From positions 1-30,066 of IMG/VR virus record IMGVR_UViG_3300028840_001140: DNA of 30,066 nt. One strand, given 5' to 3'. A program made the translations under genes and the position numbers. The notes under the pieces are model-generated. The model saw only the letters and a list, made by a program, of their open reading frames with translations, did no database searches and was not told where the DNA came from. Position 1 is the stretch's first letter; the number at the start of each line of letters is the position of its first letter. Shown here in pieces: positions 10,513 to 30,066 of the stretch. This stretch comes from a virus.

Positions 10513-11005
10513 GATGTCGGAGGAGATGCTCGTGATCGCCACCCGGATCAGCAAGAGCCTCGCCAAGCAGCACGCGGGCTACTACGACGCCGGGCTTGGG
10601 TTCGACGACCTGAAGCAGGTCGGCCTGATGGGGGCCATCATTGGCTTCCGGGCCTACGACCCCGCGAAGGGGGCATCACTGCCGACGGTCATCTTCACCT
10701 ACGCCCGCAACGCGATGAGGTACGAGCTTCGGCAGGTCAGCCGGGAGCGCCCCTCCTCGACCGTCCAGATGCCGGAGAAGCTCGACCCGGCCACCGAGGA
10801 GCCCGAGGGCCTCTCGCCGGACGAGGAGCGGATGCAGGACGCCGTGGAGACGCTCCCACGCGACCTGGGCGGGATCATCGATATGCTTTTCGTCGAAGGC
10901 ATCAGTCAGGCGGACGCGGCCCGGAGGCTGGGGGTCTCCGTATCGACCGTGTCCCGTCGGAAGCTGAAGGCGTTGGCATTGATTGAGGAGGCATACGAAG
11001 GATGA
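10502..11005 (+). CDS. Phage RNA polymerase sigma-like factor (167 aa)
   Basis: Residues about 10-85 fit sigma-70 region 2: GFDDLKQVGLMGAIIGFRAYDP followed by SLPTVIFTYARNAMRYELRQ, the conserved DL.QVG..G...A...YDP.....F..YA....R form. After an acidic linker, residues about 115-163 fit region 4: LPRDLGGIIDMLFVEGISQ, then the helix-turn-helix AARRLGVSVSTVSRRKLKAL. Region 1 and region 3 are missing, as in short phage and ECF-like factors. It would redirect host RNA polymerase to phage promoters. The first ATG overlaps the previous gene by 11 bases; ATG at 10514 is an alternative start. It is translationally coupled to the sugar dehydrogenase gene (ATGATG). Confidence 0.8.
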   Translation: MDGEMSEEMLVIATRISKSLAKQHAGYYDAGLGFDDLKQVGLMGAIIGFRAYDPAKGASLPTVIFTYARNAMRYELRQVSRERPSSTVQMPEKLDPATEEPEGLSPDEERMQDAVETLPRDLGGIIDMLFVEGISQADAARRLGVSVSTVSRRKLKALALIEEAYEG

Positions 11006-11877
11006 TGGAATGCAAGAGAGATGCACTGTACTGGGTAGTCGGCGCAGGCGGGTACATCGCCAGGAGCCACTTCGCCGCCATCAAGGCGACGGGGGGCCGG
11101 ATCGCTGGGATCTGCGACCTCCGCGATAGCCTCGGGCAGATCGACGCCTTCGAGAAGGACGTGCCGGTGTTCTCGGACTTCAACGAGCTTCTCCTCGACG
11201 CGGGCTTCGAGACCGGCGGGGACCGCTACGTGGTCATCTGCACCCCGAACGACCTCCACCGGGCACAGGCGATTGACGCGATGGAGGCCGGGCTCAACGT
11301 GGTACTGGAGAAGCCTGCGGCCCTCACCGCCCCTGGGGCCGAGGACATCCTCGCGGTGCAGCGTGCGACCGACCGGGAGTGCTGGCCGGTCCTTCAGATG
11401 CGGCTCCACCCGGACCTCATGGACCTGAAGCGGAAGATCGTGGACGAGAAGCTCGACAAGCTGCACGTCGGGATCGACTACGTCACCTACCGGGGTCCGT
11501 GGTATCACGCCTCGTGGAAGGGCGGCCACCGGAGGAGCGGAGGCATCGGGCTCAACCTCGGCGTCCACCTCTTCGACCTCGCCCAGTGGCTCTTCGGCTA
11601 CGACCCGGAGATGGTCGTCGGCGGGGCCAGGATCACGGACGACTCCTTCTCAGGCGTCCTCTGCCTGCCGCGCGCCACGGTGACCTTCAACATCGCCACC
11701 GGGAACGAGGGCTTCAGCCGTACGATGGACATCGCGGGCTTCGGCACCTACGACTTCACGAGCGCCGTGGACCTGCACACCGCTTTCTACGAGCATATGC
11801 TGCTTGGCAAGGTGGCCTCGCTGGAAGAGGCCATTCCCGCCATCCGTATCGTCAACTCGCTGGACAAGAGGGCCTGA
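11002..11877 (+). CDS. Gfo/Idh/MocA oxidoreductase, WlbA/WbpB-like UDP-sugar dehydrogenase
   Basis: The N-terminal Rossmann fold shows VVGAGGYIARSHF (residues 12-24), then ICTPNDLH and VVLEKPAA with the family's catalytic EKP at 104-106. The C-terminal half has YVTYRGPWYHASWKG and SGGIGLNLGVHLFDLAQWLFG, which closely follow the WlbA/WbpB type (RG.WY..SWKG...SGGI..N.GVH.FD...W.FG). Those enzymes oxidise UDP-N-acetylglucosaminuronic acid at C3, using NAD and 2-oxoglutarate, for making diacetylated mannosaminuronic acid in lipopolysaccharide. At 291 residues it is slightly short for the family. It starts on the sigma gene's stop. Substrate identity is inferred from resemblance. Together with the glycosyltransferase and sulfotransferase-like genes it suggests glycan synthesis. 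Confidence 0.85.
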   Translation: MMECKRDALYWVVGAGGYIARSHFAAIKATGGRIAGICDLRDSLGQIDAFEKDVPVFSDFNELLLDAGFETGGDRYVVICTPNDLHRAQAIDAMEAGLNVVLEKPAALTAPGAEDILAVQRATDRECWPVLQMRLHPDLMDLKRKIVDEKLDKLHVGIDYVTYRGPWYHASWKGGHRRSGGIGLNLGVHLFDLAQWLFGYDPEMVVGGARITDDSFSGVLCLPRATVTFNIATGNEGFSRTMDIAGFGTYDFTSAVDLHTAFYEHMLLGKVASLEEAIPAIRIVNSLDKRA

Positions 11878-11878
11878 C

Positions 11879-12133
11879 ATGGACATCCTTGCTATCGCTC
11901 GCTGGAACGTGGAGAAGGGCCTGACCTGCAAGGCGGGCCACGTGGACATCCCGGCGCACGATGGCGAGATCGTCACCCTCTTCGGATACCGTCTCACGGA
12001 CGAGGCTGCCGCAAGTGTCGGCATCCCAATCATTTACGCCCGTAGCTCCGACGAAGCCTGCTCGGTCTACGCGCTCATGCTCACTGCAATCGAAGCCGCA
12101 TCGGGGGAAGCGGCCCACGGAGGAAAGTCGTGA
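11879..12133 (+). CDS. Unknown protein (84 aa)
   Basis: The ATG follows the dehydrogenase stop by one base. The protein begins MDILAIARWNVEKGLTCKAGH and continues with short strand-like and helical segments, with no membrane helix. The end is Ala/Gly rich (AIEAASGEAAHGGKS) and overlaps the next gene's GTG. Codon use matches its neighbours. I recognise no family. Position alone might tie it to the dehydrogenase or the protease gene. Confidence 0.5.
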   Translation: MDILAIARWNVEKGLTCKAGHVDIPAHDGEIVTLFGYRLTDEAAASVGIPIIYARSSDEACSVYALMLTAIEAASGEAAHGGKS

Positions 12134-12936
12134 AGACCCTGTTCACTCTCATCCTGTTCGTCGCCCTGGCCGTCGGCTGCGCCACCCCGCCCCCGCCCGC
12201 TCCCCTCCCCGTACCGGAGCCGGAGCCCGAGAACCCCTACGCACACCAGACGTTCCAGCCGAAGTACCTGACCTCCACGGTGGAGATCACCACCTACTAC
12301 TCCACGCTGCCCACCAAGTTCCGGGCCTCCCACTCGATCACCCCGATGGCGGGGACTGACGAGACCGGCCAGCCCTACGTCGCTCGTGGCAGGGGCACCG
12401 GAGTGGTCCTCGGGAAGATCGGCGCAGAGAAGGTCTGGGTGCTGTCGGCCAAGCACGTCCTCGCCAACGCGGACAAGGTGACTATCTCCAACGGCGACGG
12501 GACCGAGTACGAGGCGGACATCGCCACCCGATACCTGATGAAGGACAACGACCTGGGCGTGATCGGTGTGATCTCGGCGGACCTCTTCGGCAAGGTGACG
12601 AGGGCCTCCTTCTCGGACGAGCCGATCCTCCCCGGCTACATGCTCTGGCAGATCGGGTGCGCCCTCGGCGGCGACAAGATCCCCGCGTACGGCCCGGCCC
12701 ATCTCGGCGGTCGGAAGATTTTCAGCGGCTTCTTCGCTCGCGCTGGTGTCCACACGCTGCCCGGCAACTCCGGCGGCCCGATCTTCTACAGGGGCCACTG
12801 CATCGGGATCGTCTCCGCGATCCTCGTAAACCGCAGCACCCGGCAGCTTTACAGCCACCTGACGTTCTACGTGCCGGGCGACGAGATCCTGAAGTTCGTC
12901 TTCGAGTGGTCCGAGGCCAGCGCCAAGGGGGACTGA
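12130..12936 (+). CDS. Lipoprotein serine protease, trypsin/DegP-like fold (268 aa)
   Basis: The GTG at 12130 is preceded by GGAGGAAAG. Residues 1-16 form a signal peptide with a lipobox ending LAVGC (Cys17), followed by a Pro-rich tether (PPPPAPLPVPEPEPE). The protease domain shows the three catalytic elements in chymotrypsin order: VLSAKHVL (His109), DNDLGVI (Asp141) and PGNSGGPIF (Ser214). GTGVVLG before the His is also typical. It should be exported, lipid-anchored to the membrane, and cut proteins in the periplasm or at the surface. Phage-encoded exported trypsin-like lipoproteins are unusual. Possible jobs are processing of receptors or envelope proteins, or superinfection exclusion; none can be chosen from sequence. 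No PDZ domain follows. Confidence 0.85.
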   Translation: MKTLFTLILFVALAVGCATPPPPAPLPVPEPEPENPYAHQTFQPKYLTSTVEITTYYSTLPTKFRASHSITPMAGTDETGQPYVARGRGTGVVLGKIGAEKVWVLSAKHVLANADKVTISNGDGTEYEADIATRYLMKDNDLGVIGVISADLFGKVTRASFSDEPILPGYMLWQIGCALGGDKIPAYGPAHLGGRKIFSGFFARAGVHTLPGNSGGPIFYRGHCIGIVSAILVNRSTRQLYSHLTFYVPGDEILKFVFEWSEASAKGD

Positions 12937-16548: not shown

Positions 16549-18615
16549 ATGAGTACCAAGCAGTTGCGCGTGGGCCTTGTCGTCGCCCCGGGGCTGGAGA
16601 GCTTCATCAAGCCCGTGGTCGAGACCGGCCCCGACGATGTCCAGTTCGTTCCCCTCACCAAGGTGCCCGACCCGACCGTGGACGTGACGTTCTGCGAGTG
16701 GGCCAACGAGACGGCCATTCAGGTCACGGGAGCGCACAAGCAGGGGCCTATCGTGGTCCGCTGCCACTCCTACGAGGTCTTCGCGAACGTCCAGCGGCAG
16801 AACCCGGGGACGGGCCAGCCCGAGACCGTGCCCATGCTCGCCGCGATCAACTGGGAGAACGTGGACACCCTGGTCTTCGTCGCGCCCCACGTCCGGGACT
16901 TCGCCATGAAGCACTACGGCCCGCAGATCATCGCCAACGGGAACGGCCCCGAGATCGTGGTCATCCCCAACGGGGTCGATCTTCAGAAGTTCGAGGTCAG
17001 CCCTTCCAAGGACTACATGGGCAAGAACGTCGCCTGGGTGGGCTCGATCAGCAACAAGAAGGGGCCGGAACTCTTCGCGCAGGCCGTGGCCGAACTCGCC
17101 GAGCACGATGACGGCGTCCGGTTCCACGTCGCGGGCGAGTACACCGACCCCCGCTACTTCGCCTACTTCTCCGACTTCTTCGAGAAGGCTGGGCTGGCGG
17201 ACCGCGTCAAGTTCTACGGGAAGGTTCCCGCCGAGGAGATGCCGAAGTGGCTGGAGGACAAGCAGTTCATCCTCTCCACCTCGCCGTGGGAGTCGTTCCA
17301 GTACGCCGTGGCCGAGGGCATCCTCTCCGGCCTCTATCCGCTCGTCCACGCATGGCCCGGCTGCCCGTGGCCCGGACAGTGGACCGACAGCTTCGGGCTG
17401 ATCGAGCAGTACGACAAGGCGCGCGAGAAGGGCTTCGCCCACTCGAAGGAGTGCATCCAGTTCGTCAAGGACAACTACGACCTCGCCGACCGTGGTGCCG
17501 ACCTGATCGACCTGCTCCGGGAGAGCGCCGCCCTCGCCCCCAAGCCGAAGGTCGGGCTCTGCATGATGGCCCGCGCCAACGACCCGCTGCTGCTCAAGGC
17601 CATCGAGAGCGCCAAGGGGCACGTAGACGGCGTCTTCCTCTGCCTCGACGCCCGGCACACCCCGTACGACCTGAAGGCCGTCACGGACCTCGTGGAGTCC
17701 TTCGACGTGCCCTTCAAGGTCGAGACCGTCGAGCCTCCCCTCTACGAGGGCGTGCTCCACTTCTCCGACTTCCGGAACATGACCCTGCGCCTCGCGCTTG
17801 AGGGGGGCATGGACTGGGCCTGGGTGCTCGACTCCGATGAGTTCATCCAGAAGGGCGCGGGGATGATCCGCGAGTCGATCTACGCGGCGGCCTACAAGCC
17901 CGAGGTCAACTCGGTCCTCTGCACGGTGGACTGCTACACCGACGACGGGGCCACCGCGACCGAGAGCGCCGTCAACATCCGGGGCCTGAAGCTGGTCGGG
18001 GACGGCATCCTCACCTACCGCTACCCGATCCACAACCAGCTTTACGGGGACAAGAAGTCCGTCGCCAACACGGACATCGTCATCAACTCCTCCTACCGGG
18101 GCACGCTGGAGGAGCACGTCAAGCGGTCCCTCCCGTCCCTCATGAAGATGTACGAGGCCGAGGCCAAGGCCGAGAAGGCTGCCCTGACCGTCGAGGACGA
18201 GGAGACCGCCGACCAGCACCGGCAGGCCCGCCTCCACTCCATGTTCTACATCGCCCGCTCGTACGTGGCCCTGAAGGACGCGGACAACCTGAAGCGGTGG
18301 GCGCGCATGTACGTGGACGCCAACGGCGAGGACGCCAGCGCGGCGGGGATCTACTTCCACCTCATCAACGCCCACCATCAGGGCAACGAGGCGGAAGAGG
18401 CGATGGACATCCTCAAGGAGGCTCTCACCATCCACCCGGAGCACCCGGACCTGAACCACCTGATGATGACGGTCAGCGCCCTGAAGTGGTGGGCGGGCTG
18501 CCGGGACCAGGGCCAGTACACCGGGCTGCCGCTGGCGACGAAGGGGCCGGAAGACGCCCTGCCGCAGGTCGCCCCGATGCTCGGGATGCCCCTCAATTTC
18601 GCGAACCTCTCGTAG
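16549..18615 (+). CDS. Glycosyltransferase fusion: GT4-type + GT2-type + TPR-like helices (688 aa)
   Basis: Residues about 1-325 form a GT-B (GT4-type) enzyme: VIPNGVD at 138-144, VAWVGSISNKKGPELFAQAV, FYGKVPAEEMPKWL, and the E..x7..E donor-binding element ESFQYAVAEG near 247-256. From residue 332 (PKVGLCMMARAND) a second, GT-A (GT2-like) domain follows, with DWAWVLDSDEFI near 421-432 giving the metal-binding DxD motif, and YPIHNQLYG later. Residues about 560-660 are helical pairs like TPR repeats (LHSMFYIARSYVALKDADNL, YFHLINAHHQGNEAEEAMDI). Two catalytic domains in one chain suggest transfer of two sugars in sequence or on one acceptor. The target could be phage DNA, virion proteins or host glycans. 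It is flanked by short gaps, so it may be its own transcription unit. Confidence 0.85.
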   Translation: MSTKQLRVGLVVAPGLESFIKPVVETGPDDVQFVPLTKVPDPTVDVTFCEWANETAIQVTGAHKQGPIVVRCHSYEVFANVQRQNPGTGQPETVPMLAAINWENVDTLVFVAPHVRDFAMKHYGPQIIANGNGPEIVVIPNGVDLQKFEVSPSKDYMGKNVAWVGSISNKKGPELFAQAVAELAEHDDGVRFHVAGEYTDPRYFAYFSDFFEKAGLADRVKFYGKVPAEEMPKWLEDKQFILSTSPWESFQYAVAEGILSGLYPLVHAWPGCPWPGQWTDSFGLIEQYDKAREKGFAHSKECIQFVKDNYDLADRGADLIDLLRESAALAPKPKVGLCMMARANDPLLLKAIESAKGHVDGVFLCLDARHTPYDLKAVTDLVESFDVPFKVETVEPPLYEGVLHFSDFRNMTLRLALEGGMDWAWVLDSDEFIQKGAGMIRESIYAAAYKPEVNSVLCTVDCYTDDGATATESAVNIRGLKLVGDGILTYRYPIHNQLYGDKKSVANTDIVINSSYRGTLEEHVKRSLPSLMKMYEAEAKAEKAALTVEDEETADQHRQARLHSMFYIARSYVALKDADNLKRWARMYVDANGEDASAAGIYFHLINAHHQGNEAEEAMDILKEALTIHPEHPDLNHLMMTVSALKWWAGCRDQGQYTGLPLATKGPEDALPQVAPMLGMPLNFANLS

Positions 18616-18686: not shown

Positions 18687-19217
18687 ATGAGCGACGACAC
18701 CCAGAGCAACTTCGACGAGCCCAACTGCCCCGCATGGCGGGAGTGGGACCGGACCATCGTCGAGCGCCACCCCAACGCCCAGCCGCCTCCCATCGAGCGC
18801 CGGGCACGCAAGGCCCTCGTCGAGCATCTCCTCACCCACAAGAACTGGGCCGTGACCGCCGTCGCCAAGCACGTGGCCGAGCGGTTCAAGGTCTCCACCC
18901 GGGCCGTCCTGAACGACGTGGTGCAGATCGAGCGCCGCTGGCTGAAGCACGACGAGAAGTACGCGCAGAAGGCCCGCACCCGCGTCGTCCGCCGCCTGGA
19001 GGAACTCTGGGAGCGCGCGTGGAAGGACGAGAAGCTCATGCTCTGCCTTCAGATCAACAAGGAGATCGCCCGCGTCCTCGGCATCACCGACAAGGGCATC
19101 GAGGTCAACGTGGGCCGTGACCACGCCCGCCGCGAGGCCGTGCTCCGTGACCCCAACGCCCGGAAGGCCATTCAGGACGCCCTCGACGCCGACGCCGACG
19201 CGACCGAGAGCCCCTGA
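18687..19217 (+). CDS. Putative terminase small subunit (176 aa)
   Basis: The ATG follows AAGGAG with good spacing. Residues about 35-75 hold a helix-turn-helix-like segment (HKNWAVTAVAKHVAERFKVS followed by TRAVLNDVVQIERRWL). A helical region follows (ARTRVVRRLEELWERAWKDE and LQINKEIARVLGI), as in many small terminase proteins, which bind the packaging site and oligomerise through helices. The C-terminus is acidic and disordered (DALDADADATESP). The large terminase lies one gene downstream, which supports the assignment. A plain DNA-binding regulator cannot be ruled out. Its stop overlaps the methyltransferase start. Confidence 0.65.
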   Translation: MSDDTQSNFDEPNCPAWREWDRTIVERHPNAQPPPIERRARKALVEHLLTHKNWAVTAVAKHVAERFKVSTRAVLNDVVQIERRWLKHDEKYAQKARTRVVRRLEELWERAWKDEKLMLCLQINKEIARVLGITDKGIEVNVGRDHARREAVLRDPNARKAIQDALDADADATESP

Positions 19218-20050
19218 TGAACCAGAGCCTCCACACGGCAAGGGCGGCCAAGGCCGATGAGTTCTACACCCGGCTTGCGGACATCGAGAAGGAGCTTCGC
19301 CACTACAGGCGGCACTTCAAGGGGAAGCGCGTGCTCTGCAACTGCGATGACCCGGCCACCAGCAACTTCCCTCGGTACTTCGCGGAGAACTTCGACGACC
19401 TGGGCCTCCAGTCACTCGCCTCCTCCTATATCGACTTCCGTAGCCCCGAAGCCGTGGCGCTACTCAGGGAGGCGGACATCGTCGTGACGAACCCGCCCTT
19501 CAGCCTCTTCCGGGAGTACATCGCGCAGTTGATCGAGCACGGGAAGCAGTTCCTCATCATCGGGAGCCTGAACGTGGCGACCTACAAAGAGGTCTTCCCT
19601 CTCTTCAAGGAGGGGAGGCTGTGGATGGGCGTGACCGGCGGGAGCATGGCGTTCCGGGTGCCGGACAGCTACGAGCCGAGGAAGACGCGGTACTGGCAGG
19701 CCGAGGACGGGCAGAAGTGGCGCAGCCTCGGGAACTCCTATTGGTTCACGAACTTGCACCCGGACACGCTCCGGCCTCCCCTCGCCCTGACCAGGGCCTA
19801 CGACCCGGAGACCTACCCGACCTACGACAACTACGACGCGATCAACGTGGACCGTGTCGCCGACATTCCGGTGGACTACGACGGCGAGATGGGCGTGCCG
19901 ATCACGTTCCTCTTGAAGCACAACCCGAAGCAGTTCGAGATCGTCGGCATCGACCGGCAGCTAACGCTTGCGGAGAACGGGAAGACGAGCCGGTTCTTCA
20001 TCGAAGGCAGGGAGATTTACGCCCGCATCATCATCAGGAGGAAGCCCTGA
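19217..20050 (+). CDS. EcoRI-type adenine-specific DNA methyltransferase (277 aa)
   Basis: The start overlaps the small terminase stop (TGATG), and the stop overlaps the large terminase start. The N-terminus AKADEFYTRLADIEKEL followed by FKGKRVLCNCDDPATSNF is characteristic of the EcoRI methylase family. The catalytic motif NPPF is at residues 92-95 in IVVTNPPFSLF, and the C-terminus holds the family's conserved FEIVGIDR-like strand. These enzymes methylate adenine with S-adenosylmethionine. No partner nuclease is nearby, so it is an orphan, probably shielding phage DNA from host restriction or marking it at packaging. The sequence does not prove that GAATTC is the target. Confidence 0.85.
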   Translation: MNQSLHTARAAKADEFYTRLADIEKELRHYRRHFKGKRVLCNCDDPATSNFPRYFAENFDDLGLQSLASSYIDFRSPEAVALLREADIVVTNPPFSLFREYIAQLIEHGKQFLIIGSLNVATYKEVFPLFKEGRLWMGVTGGSMAFRVPDSYEPRKTRYWQAEDGQKWRSLGNSYWFTNLHPDTLRPPLALTRAYDPETYPTYDNYDAINVDRVADIPVDYDGEMGVPITFLLKHNPKQFEIVGIDRQLTLAENGKTSRFFIEGREIYARIIIRRKP

Positions 20051-27212: not shown

Positions 27213-28394
27213 ATGGCGGGACTTCTCAACCGCAAGGCGCAGATCGCGCTGAAGATCGAGAGCGTGGAGGGCACCGAGGAAGTCCTCGCGGCTGCGGACG
27301 CCGCCATGCTCGTCTACGACCCGACCTACACGCCGGACATCGCGAAGTTCGTGCGGAACCCGGCCCGGTCGAAGCTCACCCCCCTCGGGTCCGTCTCGGG
27401 CCAGAGGAGCGCCGCCATCTCGTGGCGGACCGAACTGAAGGGCTCCGGGGCGCTCACCGCGACCTCGTACCCCTCCTGGGACTCCGCGCTCAGGGCCTGC
27501 GGGTTCACCCGCAACGCCGTCTCTGGCGCGAGCGTCTCCACCATCGTCGGCACCTTCGTTCCCGGCGAGACCATCACGGGCGGCACCTCCGGTGCGACGG
27601 CGCGCGTGGTCAGCGAGTGGTCCGGCGCGGCGGGCGAGATCCGCTTCGTGCCGACCTCCGGCGCGACCGTGTTCGTCGCCTCCGACGGTCTGGTGGGCAG
27701 CGTCTCCGGCGCGACCTGCCACATCTCCGGGCTCACGGCGGACGAGAAGGGCTTCGAGTACCGCCCGACCTCCGCGAACGTGCCCAGCGCCACCGTGGGG
27801 CTCTACATGGACGGCCTGAAGCACCCCATCAGGGGAGCGCGCGGCACCGTCGCCATCGAGGCCACCATCGGCGAGCCCGCCTTCCTGAACTTCACGTTCA
27901 GCGGCGTCTACAGCGCCGTGACCGCTGCGGCCCTCCTCTCGGGCATCAGCTACGAGGACGTGACCCCGAAGGCGTTCCTGTGCGTCGAACTGAACATCAG
28001 CGGGTTCACCCCGGTGTTCGCTTCCTGCACCCTGGACATCGCCAACTCGGTCGAGGGCCGGTCCGACGCGAACGACTGCTCCGGCTTCAAGAGCTTCATC
28101 ATCCCCGAGCGCGCCCCGACGGGCAGCCTCGACCCGGAGATGGAGCTTCCGAGCACGCACGACTTCTACGCGCTGCTCCTCGCCAACACCACGAAGCGGC
28201 TCCACTACAAGCTGGACGACCCGGACGCCACCCCGGCGGCTGGCGAGATCATCTCGGTGTCCGCTCCGAAGTTCGAGTACAACGCGGTCGGCAAGGGTGA
28301 CCGCGCGGGCGTCCAGATCGCCGAGGTCGAGATCAACCTCGTGGCGGCGGACGTGAGCGGCGGCGATGACGAGCTTGTCATCGCGATGCTCTGA
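27213..28394 (+). CDS. Major tail (tube) protein (393 aa)
   Basis: The ATG follows GGAGGATGTAACT. The protein is all-beta and Gly/Ser/Thr rich, starting LLNRKAQIALKIESVEGTEE and ending with a strand-rich stretch (GVQIAEVEINLVAADV), as in long major tail proteins of siphoviruses. Residues about 105-190 look like an insertion domain with repeated SGAT motifs (GGTSGATARVVSEWSGAAGE and later VGSVSGATCHISGL). It comes after the neck proteins and before a terminator and the tail chaperones, the standard place. At 393 residues it is longer than lambda-type tube proteins, in keeping with the insertion. Confidence 0.75.
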   Translation: MAGLLNRKAQIALKIESVEGTEEVLAAADAAMLVYDPTYTPDIAKFVRNPARSKLTPLGSVSGQRSAAISWRTELKGSGALTATSYPSWDSALRACGFTRNAVSGASVSTIVGTFVPGETITGGTSGATARVVSEWSGAAGEIRFVPTSGATVFVASDGLVGSVSGATCHISGLTADEKGFEYRPTSANVPSATVGLYMDGLKHPIRGARGTVAIEATIGEPAFLNFTFSGVYSAVTAAALLSGISYEDVTPKAFLCVELNISGFTPVFASCTLDIANSVEGRSDANDCSGFKSFIIPERAPTGSLDPEMELPSTHDFYALLLANTTKRLHYKLDDPDATPAAGEIISVSAPKFEYNAVGKGDRAGVQIAEVEINLVAADVSGGDDELVIAML

Positions 28395-28401
28395 TCGACA
28401 T

Positions 28402-28457
28402 CTACTGTGAGGTGGGGAAGGGAGTCGGGCTACTGTGAGGTGGGGAAGGGAGTCGGG
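28402..28457 (+). repeat. Perfect 28-bp tandem duplication after the major tail gene
   Basis: Positions 28402-28429 and 28430-28457 are identical. Each copy ends in GGGAGTCGGG, the left arm of the terminator stem, so the left arm is doubled. It is the second short perfect tandem duplication of the window. Confidence 0.95.
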
Positions 28458-28470
28458 TGGTCCGGCTCCC
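28448..28470 (+). terminator. Terminator hairpin after the major tail gene
   Basis: GGGAGTCGG (28448-28456) pairs with CCGGCTCCC (28462-28470), nine pairs with one G-T and a GTGGT loop, followed by the pyrimidine-rich CTCCTTCTCATT. A terminator between the tube and chaperone genes would lower expression of the downstream tail genes. Confidence 0.65.
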
Positions 28471-28510
28471 CTCCTTCTCATTGCCGTAACTGCTTGGAGG
28501 CAGTAGTCTT

Positions 28511-28870
28511 ATGAGCTTCTTCATCAACCCGAACGACGTAGTCAAGGACGCCATCGACGGGATCGACGGCGTCATCTTTCACTTCCGGATCTTCACGTCC
28601 GCCGAGATGACCAGCCTCGCCGTGGAGCAGAACCTCTTCATCGGCAAGGACGGCCTCAGCCAGGACGCCATCGGCCACTACCGCAAGGTCATCCGCATGG
28701 GCCTGCGCGGCTGGGAGGGCGAGGACGCGCCGGAGTTCAAGGTCGCCGAGGACGGCTACATGGACGAGGAGATGCTCGACAGTCTCCCCTTCAGCTACTG
28801 GACGGACCTCTACGCGGCGATCCTCAAGGTCAACATGCCGTCGGAGGAAGACGAGGGAAACTCGCCGTAA
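28511..28870 (+). CDS. Tail assembly chaperone, unshifted form (gpG-like, 119 aa)
   Basis: The ATG follows TTGGAGG (28494-28500). The product is acidic and mostly helical (NDVVKDAIDGIDGVIFHFRI, AEMTSLAVEQNLFI, RKVIRMGLRGWEGED). Its place between major tail protein and tape measure is that of lambda gpG-type chaperones, which coat the tape measure protein during tail tube growth and are absent from the finished virion. Its last codons hold the slippery heptamer that makes the longer form. Sequence identity to known chaperones cannot be claimed; position and frameshift carry the assignment. Confidence 0.85.
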   Translation: MSFFINPNDVVKDAIDGIDGVIFHFRIFTSAEMTSLAVEQNLFIGKDGLSQDAIGHYRKVIRMGLRGWEGEDAPEFKVAEDGYMDEEMLDSLPFSYWTDLYAAILKVNMPSEEDEGNSP

Positions 28871-29271
28871 CCACGGCGGTCGGCTGGGGCCATGTTGCCC
28901 CCCGCTGTGGGAATGCGCCGTGCCCGTCCGACTCTCGGGCTCGCAAGATGTTCGGATGTGACCCGGGCTCGGAAGGGAGTCCGGGTTACTCGCTGTACTG
29001 CCCGAGGTGTGTGCCGTCGGGCAAGCCGAACCCGAAGTGCCCGAGGTGCGAAGGAACTGGCAAGGTGACGATGACCCGCTGTCCGAACCGTTGCATGACG
29101 CAGGACGCGCGCCAGATGTACAGCGCCTTCGGCTGGTACCAGCAGGGCCAGTTGCCCCTGGCCGGTGGGATGCTCGATCAGGCCCACTCCTACGTCAAGG
29201 CGATGGAGATCCTGAGCGTGCTCGACGGGATGCACCAGAAGATCCAGATGGAGAAGACCCAGAATGGCTGA
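28511..29271 (+). CDS. Tail assembly chaperone, -1 frameshift form (gpGT-like, 253 aa)
   Basis: After a -1 slip on G GGA AAC (28855-28861), reading continues from 28861 through CTC GCC GTA to a TGA at 29269-29271 with no stop. The product is 117 residues of the short form plus 136 new residues. The extension has a cysteine-rich part, with CPRC at about 29000 and CPRCEGTGK followed by CPNRC, like the zinc ribbons of DnaJ-type proteins. It ends in a long helix (SYVKAMEILSVLDGMHQKIQ). The internal ATG at 28948 has no ribosome site, which argues against a separate gene. It overlaps the tape measure start by eight bases. Confidence 0.85.
28855..28910 (+). promoter_or_regulatory. Programmed -1 ribosomal frameshift signal (slippery site plus stem-loop)
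   Basis: The heptamer GGGAAAC is in the right phase: zero-frame codons are GGA (28856-28858) and AAC (28859-28861). Nine bases later CCACGGCGG (28871-28879) pairs with CCGCTGTGG (28902-28910), nine pairs with one G-T. Inside, GGGGC (28886-28890) pairs with GCCCC (28897-28901). Slippery site, spacer and stem match known frameshift sites. Confidence 0.85.
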
Positions 29272-30066
29272 CCCGACCCTCTCGCAGCTTGAAGCCCTCC
29301 TCCGGGGCATTCAGAGCGACGTGCCGCAGGAGTTGGCCTCCGACTTCGACGCGCTGTCTCGGTCCCTGACCGCGACCACCAAGTCCGGCACCCAGAACCT
29401 CGCGCAGATCAAGGCCAACATCAAGGCGTTCGAGCAGTGGGAGAAGGCCGTCAAGAAGTACCAGAAGACGGCCGATGGGTCCACGCACGCGGCGAAGGCC
29501 CAGCTTGCCCTCATCACCTCCCTCACCGCCGCCTACAGCAAGCTCTCCCTCGAAGCCACCAAGGCCGCCGCCGCCCAGTCGAAGGCCGCGCACGCCGCCA
29601 AGCTGTCCGCCGCTGCCGCCGAAAGGGCCGCCAAGAAGCAGCCGAGGTTCCCCGGGGAGAAGGGTTTCCACGAGAAGGCCGTCAAGGACATCGGCAAGGT
29701 GCTGAAGGGTGCCGCGTCGGATGTGCCCGCCGAGTTGGCCGAGGACTTCGTGAAGCTCCAGAAGGCCCTGAAGGTCGTGGCCGAGGAGGGCGTCCGCACC
29801 GAGGCGTCCCTCTCCACGCTGGTCAACGCCCTGGTGGACTGGAACAAGGCCATCACCAAGTTCGCGATGAGTGGCAAGCAGGTCTCGGTCGGCTTCCACA
29901 CCATGTCCAAGGAGATCCGGGGCCTCTCGAAGGACTTCACCAACCTCGAAGACATGGCGCGGATTGCCTTCAAGGGCATCGTCCAGAACGCCGAGAACGC
30001 GAAGAAGAAGTGGAAGCGCGGTCGCCCGCAGATCATCCCCCCGATGTGGGAGGGACATGAGGGCAG
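29264..30066 (+). CDS. Tape measure protein, N-terminal part (cut by window end)
   Basis: The ATG at 29264 overlaps the chaperone stop and the frame stays open to the window edge (267 codons). The protein is almost all helix and rich in Ala, Lys, Glu and Gln (LSQLEALLRGIQSDVPQELA, KAAAAQSKAAHAAKLSAAAA). It has an internal duplication: SDVPQELASDFDALSRSL with WEKAVKKY about 30 residues later recurs as SDVPAELAEDFVKLQKAL with WNKAITKF. Tape measure proteins set tail length and follow the G/GT chaperones. The family assignment rests on position and composition. Confidence 0.75.
   Translation, partial: MADPTLSQLEALLRGIQSDVPQELASDFDALSRSLTATTKSGTQNLAQIKANIKAFEQWEKAVKKYQKTADGSTHAAKAQLALITSLTAAYSKLSLEATKAAAAQSKAAHAAKLSAAAAERAAKKQPRFPGEKGFHEKAVKDIGKVLKGAASDVPAELAEDFVKLQKALKVVAEEGVRTEASLSTLVNALVDWNKAITKFAMSGKQVSVGFHTMSKEIRGLSKDFTNLEDMARIAFKGIVQNAENAKKKWKRGRPQIIPPMWEGHEG

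Follow-up and report, generated by a model that had tools for sequence, protein, structure and literature searches.

A predicted -1 frameshift of the G/GT type and a four-cysteine T extension in the tail region of a phage contig

Introduction

Frameshifting that produces GT tail assembly chaperones is textbook material, but few parts of tail assembly are as poorly understood as T domains. In the G/GT class, frameshifting occurs at a level of a few percent, and both G and GT are absent from the virion. Gene callers easily overlook T domains, whose reading depends on a slip. In lambda, the G portion attaches both G and GT to the tape measure protein, the T portion attaches to the tube protein, and the slip rate sets the balance (PMC5009743). 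The GT frameshift is described as conserved in long-tailed phages (Xu et al. 2004, as cited in PMC5009743). GGGAAAC has been reported as the G/GT slip site for Burkholderia phage KL1 (PMC3483164), Caulobacter phage Colossus (PMC3556154), and halovirus HCTV-1 (PMC5009743).

Here we analyze a stretch of 30,066 nucleotides, one strand, covering positions 1 to 30,066 of IMG/VR virus record IMGVR_UViG_3300028840_001140 and called the window below. A sequence-only reading had proposed that a -1 frameshift in this DNA joins two tail chaperone ORFs of the G/GT type, the second forming a cysteine-rich extension. Comparison with relatives backs that proposal and points to a T domain of an apparently uncatalogued kind.

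Results

Gene layout. All features of the locus lie on the plus strand. The major tail tube protein gene (positions 27216 to 28394) matches PHROG 290, minor tail protein, with an E value of 1e-13, and homologues of its product are labelled tail tube protein in Rhodobacter phage RcMenchie, Agrobacterium phage JP1, and Vibrio phage ZX4290. Its start is unsettled, as the frame is open further upstream of 27216. Gene G (28511 to 28870), the tail assembly chaperone of 119 amino acids made by normal decoding, has a Shine-Dalgarno sequence, GGAGG, 10 nt upstream of its ATG and ends at a TAA stop codon at 28868 to 28870. The T extension in the -1 frame (28861 to 29271) comprises 136 amino acids with 9 cysteines. 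As the sequence-only reading had it, the frame stays open for 136 residues up to the tape measure start: it is open from 28861 to 29268, with a stop at 29269 to 29271, and runs past the tape measure ATG at 29264. The tape measure protein gene (29264 to 30066), which is truncated where the window ends and matches PHROG 4704, tail length tape measure protein, with an E value of 2e-4, thus overlaps the end of T and has its own Shine-Dalgarno sequence, GGAG. The G gene therefore sits between the major tail protein and tape measure genes, as in the G/GT class. The predicted GT fusion consists of the G codons from 28511 to 28861 plus T, 253 residues in total, with ..EDEGN-LAVTTAVGWGHVAPR.. as the predicted junction peptide.

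The region between the tail tube and G genes contains an inverted repeat, GGGAGTCGG...CCGGCTCCC (28435 to 28480), without a T run; a putative terminator is annotated at the same place in the HK97 record. A perfect tandem duplication of 28 bp (28402 to 28457) lies in the same interval, and another of 32 bp (389 to 453) lies in an HNH endonuclease region. Neither is a multiple of 3 in length, and both may be real or assembly artefacts. The phage also carries genes for a Gfo/Idh/MocA oxidoreductase (11002 to 11877), a trypsin-like protease (12130 to 12936), a glycosyltransferase (16549 to 18615), and an EcoRI-type adenine methyltransferase (19217 to 20050).

Slippery heptamer and RNA signals. A slippery heptamer of the X XXY YYZ form, G GGA AAC (28855 to 28861), is found near the 3' end of G, 6 nt 5' of the 0-frame stop codon and 9 nt 5' of a stem-loop. 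It is in phase with G (GAG|GGA|AAC), in agreement with the exact phase claimed beforehand, and it is the sole instance of XXXAAAZ, with X being A, G, or C, on the plus strand of the 30-kb contig. The heptamer indeed differs from GGGAAAG of lambda, as had been pointed out; it is not unusual, as GGGAAAC is known in KL1, Colossus, and HCTV-1, as well as in three relatives described below. Since it has been reported for those three viruses, GGGAAAC is not novel as a slip site. Against the frameshift reading, AAC is weaker than AAG in the A site, a ranking that comes from E. coli (PMC5009743).

The candidate stimulatory stem-loop (28871 to 28910) has a lower stem of 9 bp (28871-28879/28902-28910) and an upper stem of 5 bp (28886-28890/28897-28901), with three extra outer pairs (28866-28868/28913-28915). 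Folding of 28862 to 28915 gave -27.5 kcal/mol with a z score of -2.2, and 4 of 200 shuffled sequences were equally stable, consistent with the two-part stem of 9 and 5 pairs and the 9-nt spacer that had been read from the letters. For the shorter segment 28862 to 28911, the z score was -1.6 and 7.7% of shuffles were as stable, and this segment ranked among the most stable 0.8 to 0.9% of 50-nt windows in the contig. A downstream stimulatory RNA structure, common but not universal in the G/GT class, is thus predicted here; its stability is just moderately above that of shuffles in a stretch that is 72% GC, and the stem structure is not conserved across relatives.

Upstream, and absent from the sequence-only reading, the sequence CGGAGGA (28842 to 28848) ends 6 nt 5' of the heptamer and would form a duplex of -9.5 kcal/mol with the 3' end of 16S rRNA, making it a candidate internal Shine-Dalgarno-like stimulator. 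Comparable elements occur in some relatives only. The E. coli dnaX gene uses a similar three-part signal, composed of an internal Shine-Dalgarno sequence, a heptamer, and a stem.

The coding signal switches frame at the heptamer. Codon statistics were trained on the other genes of the contig, and log-odds per codon were calculated by frame. The signal is +1.31 in the 0 frame within G and +0.52 in the -1 frame within T, with the switch at the heptamer, and the remaining frames are negative in both stretches. Between 28861 and 28947, the -1 frame signal is near zero, yet above that of the other frames. The window G protein matched a profile of relatives' G proteins, from which it had been left out, weakly at 11.3 bits but well above shuffled copies, which scored at most 1.8.

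An alternative is that the second ORF is a gene of its own beginning at ATG 28948, with no fusion made. A gene caller would list 28948 to 29271 as an ORF of 107 amino acids, and ATG 28948 is the sole start in the -1 frame, with no ATG, GTG, or TTG before it. Unlike G and the tape measure gene, however, this ATG has no Shine-Dalgarno sequence. The first two conserved cysteines and the conserved AV.. stretch lie upstream of it, with the first cysteine 13 to 17 residues past the slip, as in relatives, and relatives retain an in-phase heptamer at this site. The near-constant distance between slip and first cysteine indicates that the part of T that a start at 28948 would lose is conserved. We consider a separate gene very improbable and favor a GT fusion.

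Relatives found through the tail tube protein. Searches of viral contigs with G, T, the tail tube protein, and terminase found no close kin of the contig, or distant ones only. Relatives were instead reached through tail tube homology in named phages, which matched 17 phage records. Twelve were read: Alteromonas phage P24; Rhizobium phages RHph_Y1_11, TM16, I4, P11VFA, and L338C; Rhodobacter phages RcZahn and RcMenchie; Agrobacterium phage JP1; Synechococcus phages S-CBS1 and S-LBS1; and Vibrio phage ZX4290. In each of the 12, the chaperone ORF carries an in-phase heptamer close to its end, between the tail tube and tape measure genes, at the same place as in the window. The heptamer is mostly AAAAAAC, with GGGAAAC in I4, P11VFA, and L338C and AAAAAAG in RcMenchie. 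The -1 ORF could be traced to the tape measure gene in 11 of the 12; in RHph_Y1_11, T runs across the record end.

Four cysteines are present in the T domains of nine of these relatives, the exceptions being S-CBS1, S-LBS1, and ZX4290. The T domain of P24, unannotated in its record, is a direct BLAST match to the window T (43% over 53 amino acids; E of 3e-5). According to the RcZahn genome paper, the usual frameshift was not clearly evident in that phage (PMC8601537). The RcZahn genome has an in-phase AAAAAAC (L005:6046) and a -1 ORF reaching the tape measure gene, which together are evidence for one. The S-CBS1 T (L010:5038-5370), the sole cysteine-less T scanned against families, corresponds to DUF1799 (PF08809)/phrog_680. 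That family is labelled "tape measure" in PHROGs, and in S-CBS1 it is the -1 frame T extension of the chaperone gene.

Genome survey with the T profile. Profiles were built from eight and then from sixteen cysteine-type T domains and searched, with no frameshift criterion applied, against about 800 genomes. Half of these belonged to the family of a Rhodobacteraceae-like match and the other half to its phylum. The searches identified 10 loci in proteobacterial genomes (L030-L036, L044-L046). In every one, an XXXAAAZ in phase with the upstream ORF lies within that ORF near the start of the T frame, where the background rate of in-phase XXXAAAZ is 8.5e-4 per codon position, and the same tail tube family is encoded upstream (10/10). 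The weakest locus, L045, keeps the cysteine site in part. A match in a Yoonia genome (L027) was discarded as spurious, as it crosses a host gene end beside an apparent LysR-type regulator gene. The cysteine-type T extension is thus common to scattered phages and prophages.

Four of the prophage relatives (L034, L036, L044, and L046) carry long stretches of A at the slip site, and slippage during transcription could there supplement that of the ribosome. Transcriptional slippage normally requires long homopolymers. If it, rather than ribosomes, were the source of the -1 product, sites such as those of L044 and L046, with 8 to 9 consecutive A residues, would suit it; the window site is just GGGAAA, and we regard this origin as extremely improbable for the window. 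Slippage by ribosomes remains the preferred reading.

The relatives also speak to the suspicion that a single uninterrupted gene was split by a mistake in sequencing or assembly. The window comes from an IMG/VR virus record, and the contig contains the two duplications noted above (28 and 32 bp), whose lengths do not preserve frame. Independent isolates and prophages nevertheless share the frame break, always at an in-phase heptamer, which makes an error hardly credible and leaves a genuine, programmed frame change as the reading that we retain.

Cysteine pattern of the T extension. In the 16-sequence alignment, C16, C21, C33, C74, P75, G102, and Q107 (T residue numbers) are invariant, and A6, G96, and P99 are kept in at least 90% of sequences. 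The family pattern is CxxC-x5-11-C-x16-43-CP...G-x-L-P..G....Q. In the window, the four-cysteine (Cys4) site made up of C16, C21, C33, and C74 spans 28906 to 29082, and the first pair is CxxxxC instead of the family CxxC. The window T scored 44.9 bits against a profile of the 15 other T domains from which it had been left out. Among members in which the heptamer fixes the start of T, the distance from the slip to the first cysteine is 13 to 17 residues; in the window, it is 15.

A second motif, C47-PR-C50-x9-C60-PR-C63 (28999 to 29049), falls between conserved cysteines 3 and 4, where relatives have a spacing of 16 to 43 amino acids and variable inserts of their own. On this alignment, the CxxC-x9-CxxC knuckle appears as an insertion specific to the window, an assignment that depends on the alignment. 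The cysteines assigned to the family site differ between the 8- and 16-sequence alignments: the former had placed C47/C50/C60/C74 at the site, and this was replaced by C16/C21/C33/C74 from the latter. The later assignment, which we prefer, additionally agrees with the nearly fixed distance to the slip.

The knuckle contains one CxxCxGxG, and to that extent the DnaJ-like zinc ribbon seen by the sequence-only reading was weakly right. The DnaJ central domain itself (PF00684, DnaJ_CXXCXGXG) was rejected: it scored 14 bits against a Pfam cut-off of 32.7, with one CxxCxGxG, not four. At an E value of 0.01, none of the 16 aligned T members matched a Pfam, NCBIfam, or PHROGs model, and the 16-sequence T profile had no credible PDB sequence match. 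The T extensions of lambda, HK97, and KL1 contain no cysteine and do not match the Cys4 T profile. The literature searched, which was limited to papers available without subscription, yielded no mention of zinc, cysteines, or iron-sulfur in connection with GT proteins. The Cys4 T family is thus apparently uncatalogued, being absent from Pfam, PHROGs, NCBIfam, and PDB sequences. T also weakly resembled proteins annotated as terminase small subunits of F116-type phages (E of 0.02 to 0.08; PV641718, AY625898, and JX104231), a similarity that may be cysteine-driven chance. Two AlphaFold models of T had mean pLDDT values of 37.5 and 44.6, too poor for showing a metal site.

T type and tail tube lineage. 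In a 21-sequence tail tube tree, the three phages with cysteine-less T domains (S-CBS1, S-LBS1, and ZX4290) form one clade with 100/100 support, and in an 11-sequence tree a 100/99 branch parts the Cys4 and cysteine-less T types. T type thus tracks tail tube lineage, a pattern to be expected from contact between T and the tube, and binding partners can be predicted directly from this correspondence.

Discussion

Layout, conservation, and homology are established by these comparisons, and from them we infer slippage and its rate, metal binding, and the partners of T. The best explanation, which we hold to be very probable, is that the locus is the G/GT tail chaperone gene of a long-tailed phage, in which a -1 slip would give GT with a Cys4 T domain. 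Most ribosomes would halt at 28868 and produce the 119-residue G. A minority would move back by one base at G GGA AAC, with help from the stem-loop that follows and possibly from the internal Shine-Dalgarno sequence, and produce the 253-residue GT. By analogy with lambda, the G part would coat the tape measure protein, the T part would recruit tail tube subunits, and G and GT would depart before the tail is complete. For the Cys4 site of the T family, the likeliest content is a single structural zinc ion, and the inserted CxxC-x9-CxxC knuckle probably holds another in the window phage.

The identity of the metal is where an alternative carries some weight. The Cys4 site may instead hold an iron-sulfur cluster or be redox active, so that tail assembly would depend on cluster loading or redox state; this rivals only the zinc assignment. 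The lambda tail protein gpL has a four-cysteine iron-sulfur cluster (PMC10721106), and the CxxC...C...CP arrangement is compatible with such a cluster, but the second knuckle of the window, CxxC-x9-CxxC, is typical of zinc and there is no fold match. We judge a cluster or redox role unlikely and favor zinc. A broader proposal is less probable still: that an uncatalogued metal-binding domain reached by slippage, with zinc or an iron-sulfur cluster, controls tail assembly and makes tube recruitment metal or redox dependent in scattered phages of Proteobacteria.

GT genes, that of RcZahn among them, can be recognized by the constant sequence signature that the Cys4 T family provides. The site also offers a simple handle, through metal content and cysteine replacements, on how T meets the tail tube.

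Among described systems, the DnaJ central domain (PF00684) shares one CxxCxGxG with the inserted knuckle, whereas DnaJ has four such motifs. The DUF1799/phrog_680 T type (S-CBS1, with S-LBS1 and ZX4290 grouped by tail tube) has the same frameshift layout and a related tail tube but no Cys4 site, and it belongs to a separate tail tube clade. RHph_I4, P11VFA, L338C, RcZahn, and JP1 encode a Cys4 T behind GGGAAAC or AAAAAAC together with a homologous tail tube; they differ by a variable insert between cysteines 3 and 4, and their T is annotated as a hypothetical protein or, in RcZahn, as a separate "tail assembly chaperone." Alteromonas phage P24, whose G and -1 ORF lie at L002:3537-4183, is the closest database match for T, with AAAAAAC in phase, the Cys4 site, and the tape measure gene next; it differs in being without the second CxxC pair. 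The lambda G/GT gene likewise lies between the tail tube and tape measure genes, has its heptamer near the end of G, and has a -1 ORF overlapping the tape measure start. It differs in using GGGAAAG, where the window has GGGAAAC, and its T has no cysteines and no match to the Cys4 profile. Homology to lambda T is thus lacking, a feature that does not define the class, as T types vary widely among phages. Judged against these systems, the programmed -1 frameshift of the window appears to be real, conserved, and of a known kind, and what is apparently new is the Cys4 type of T and its extra knuckle.
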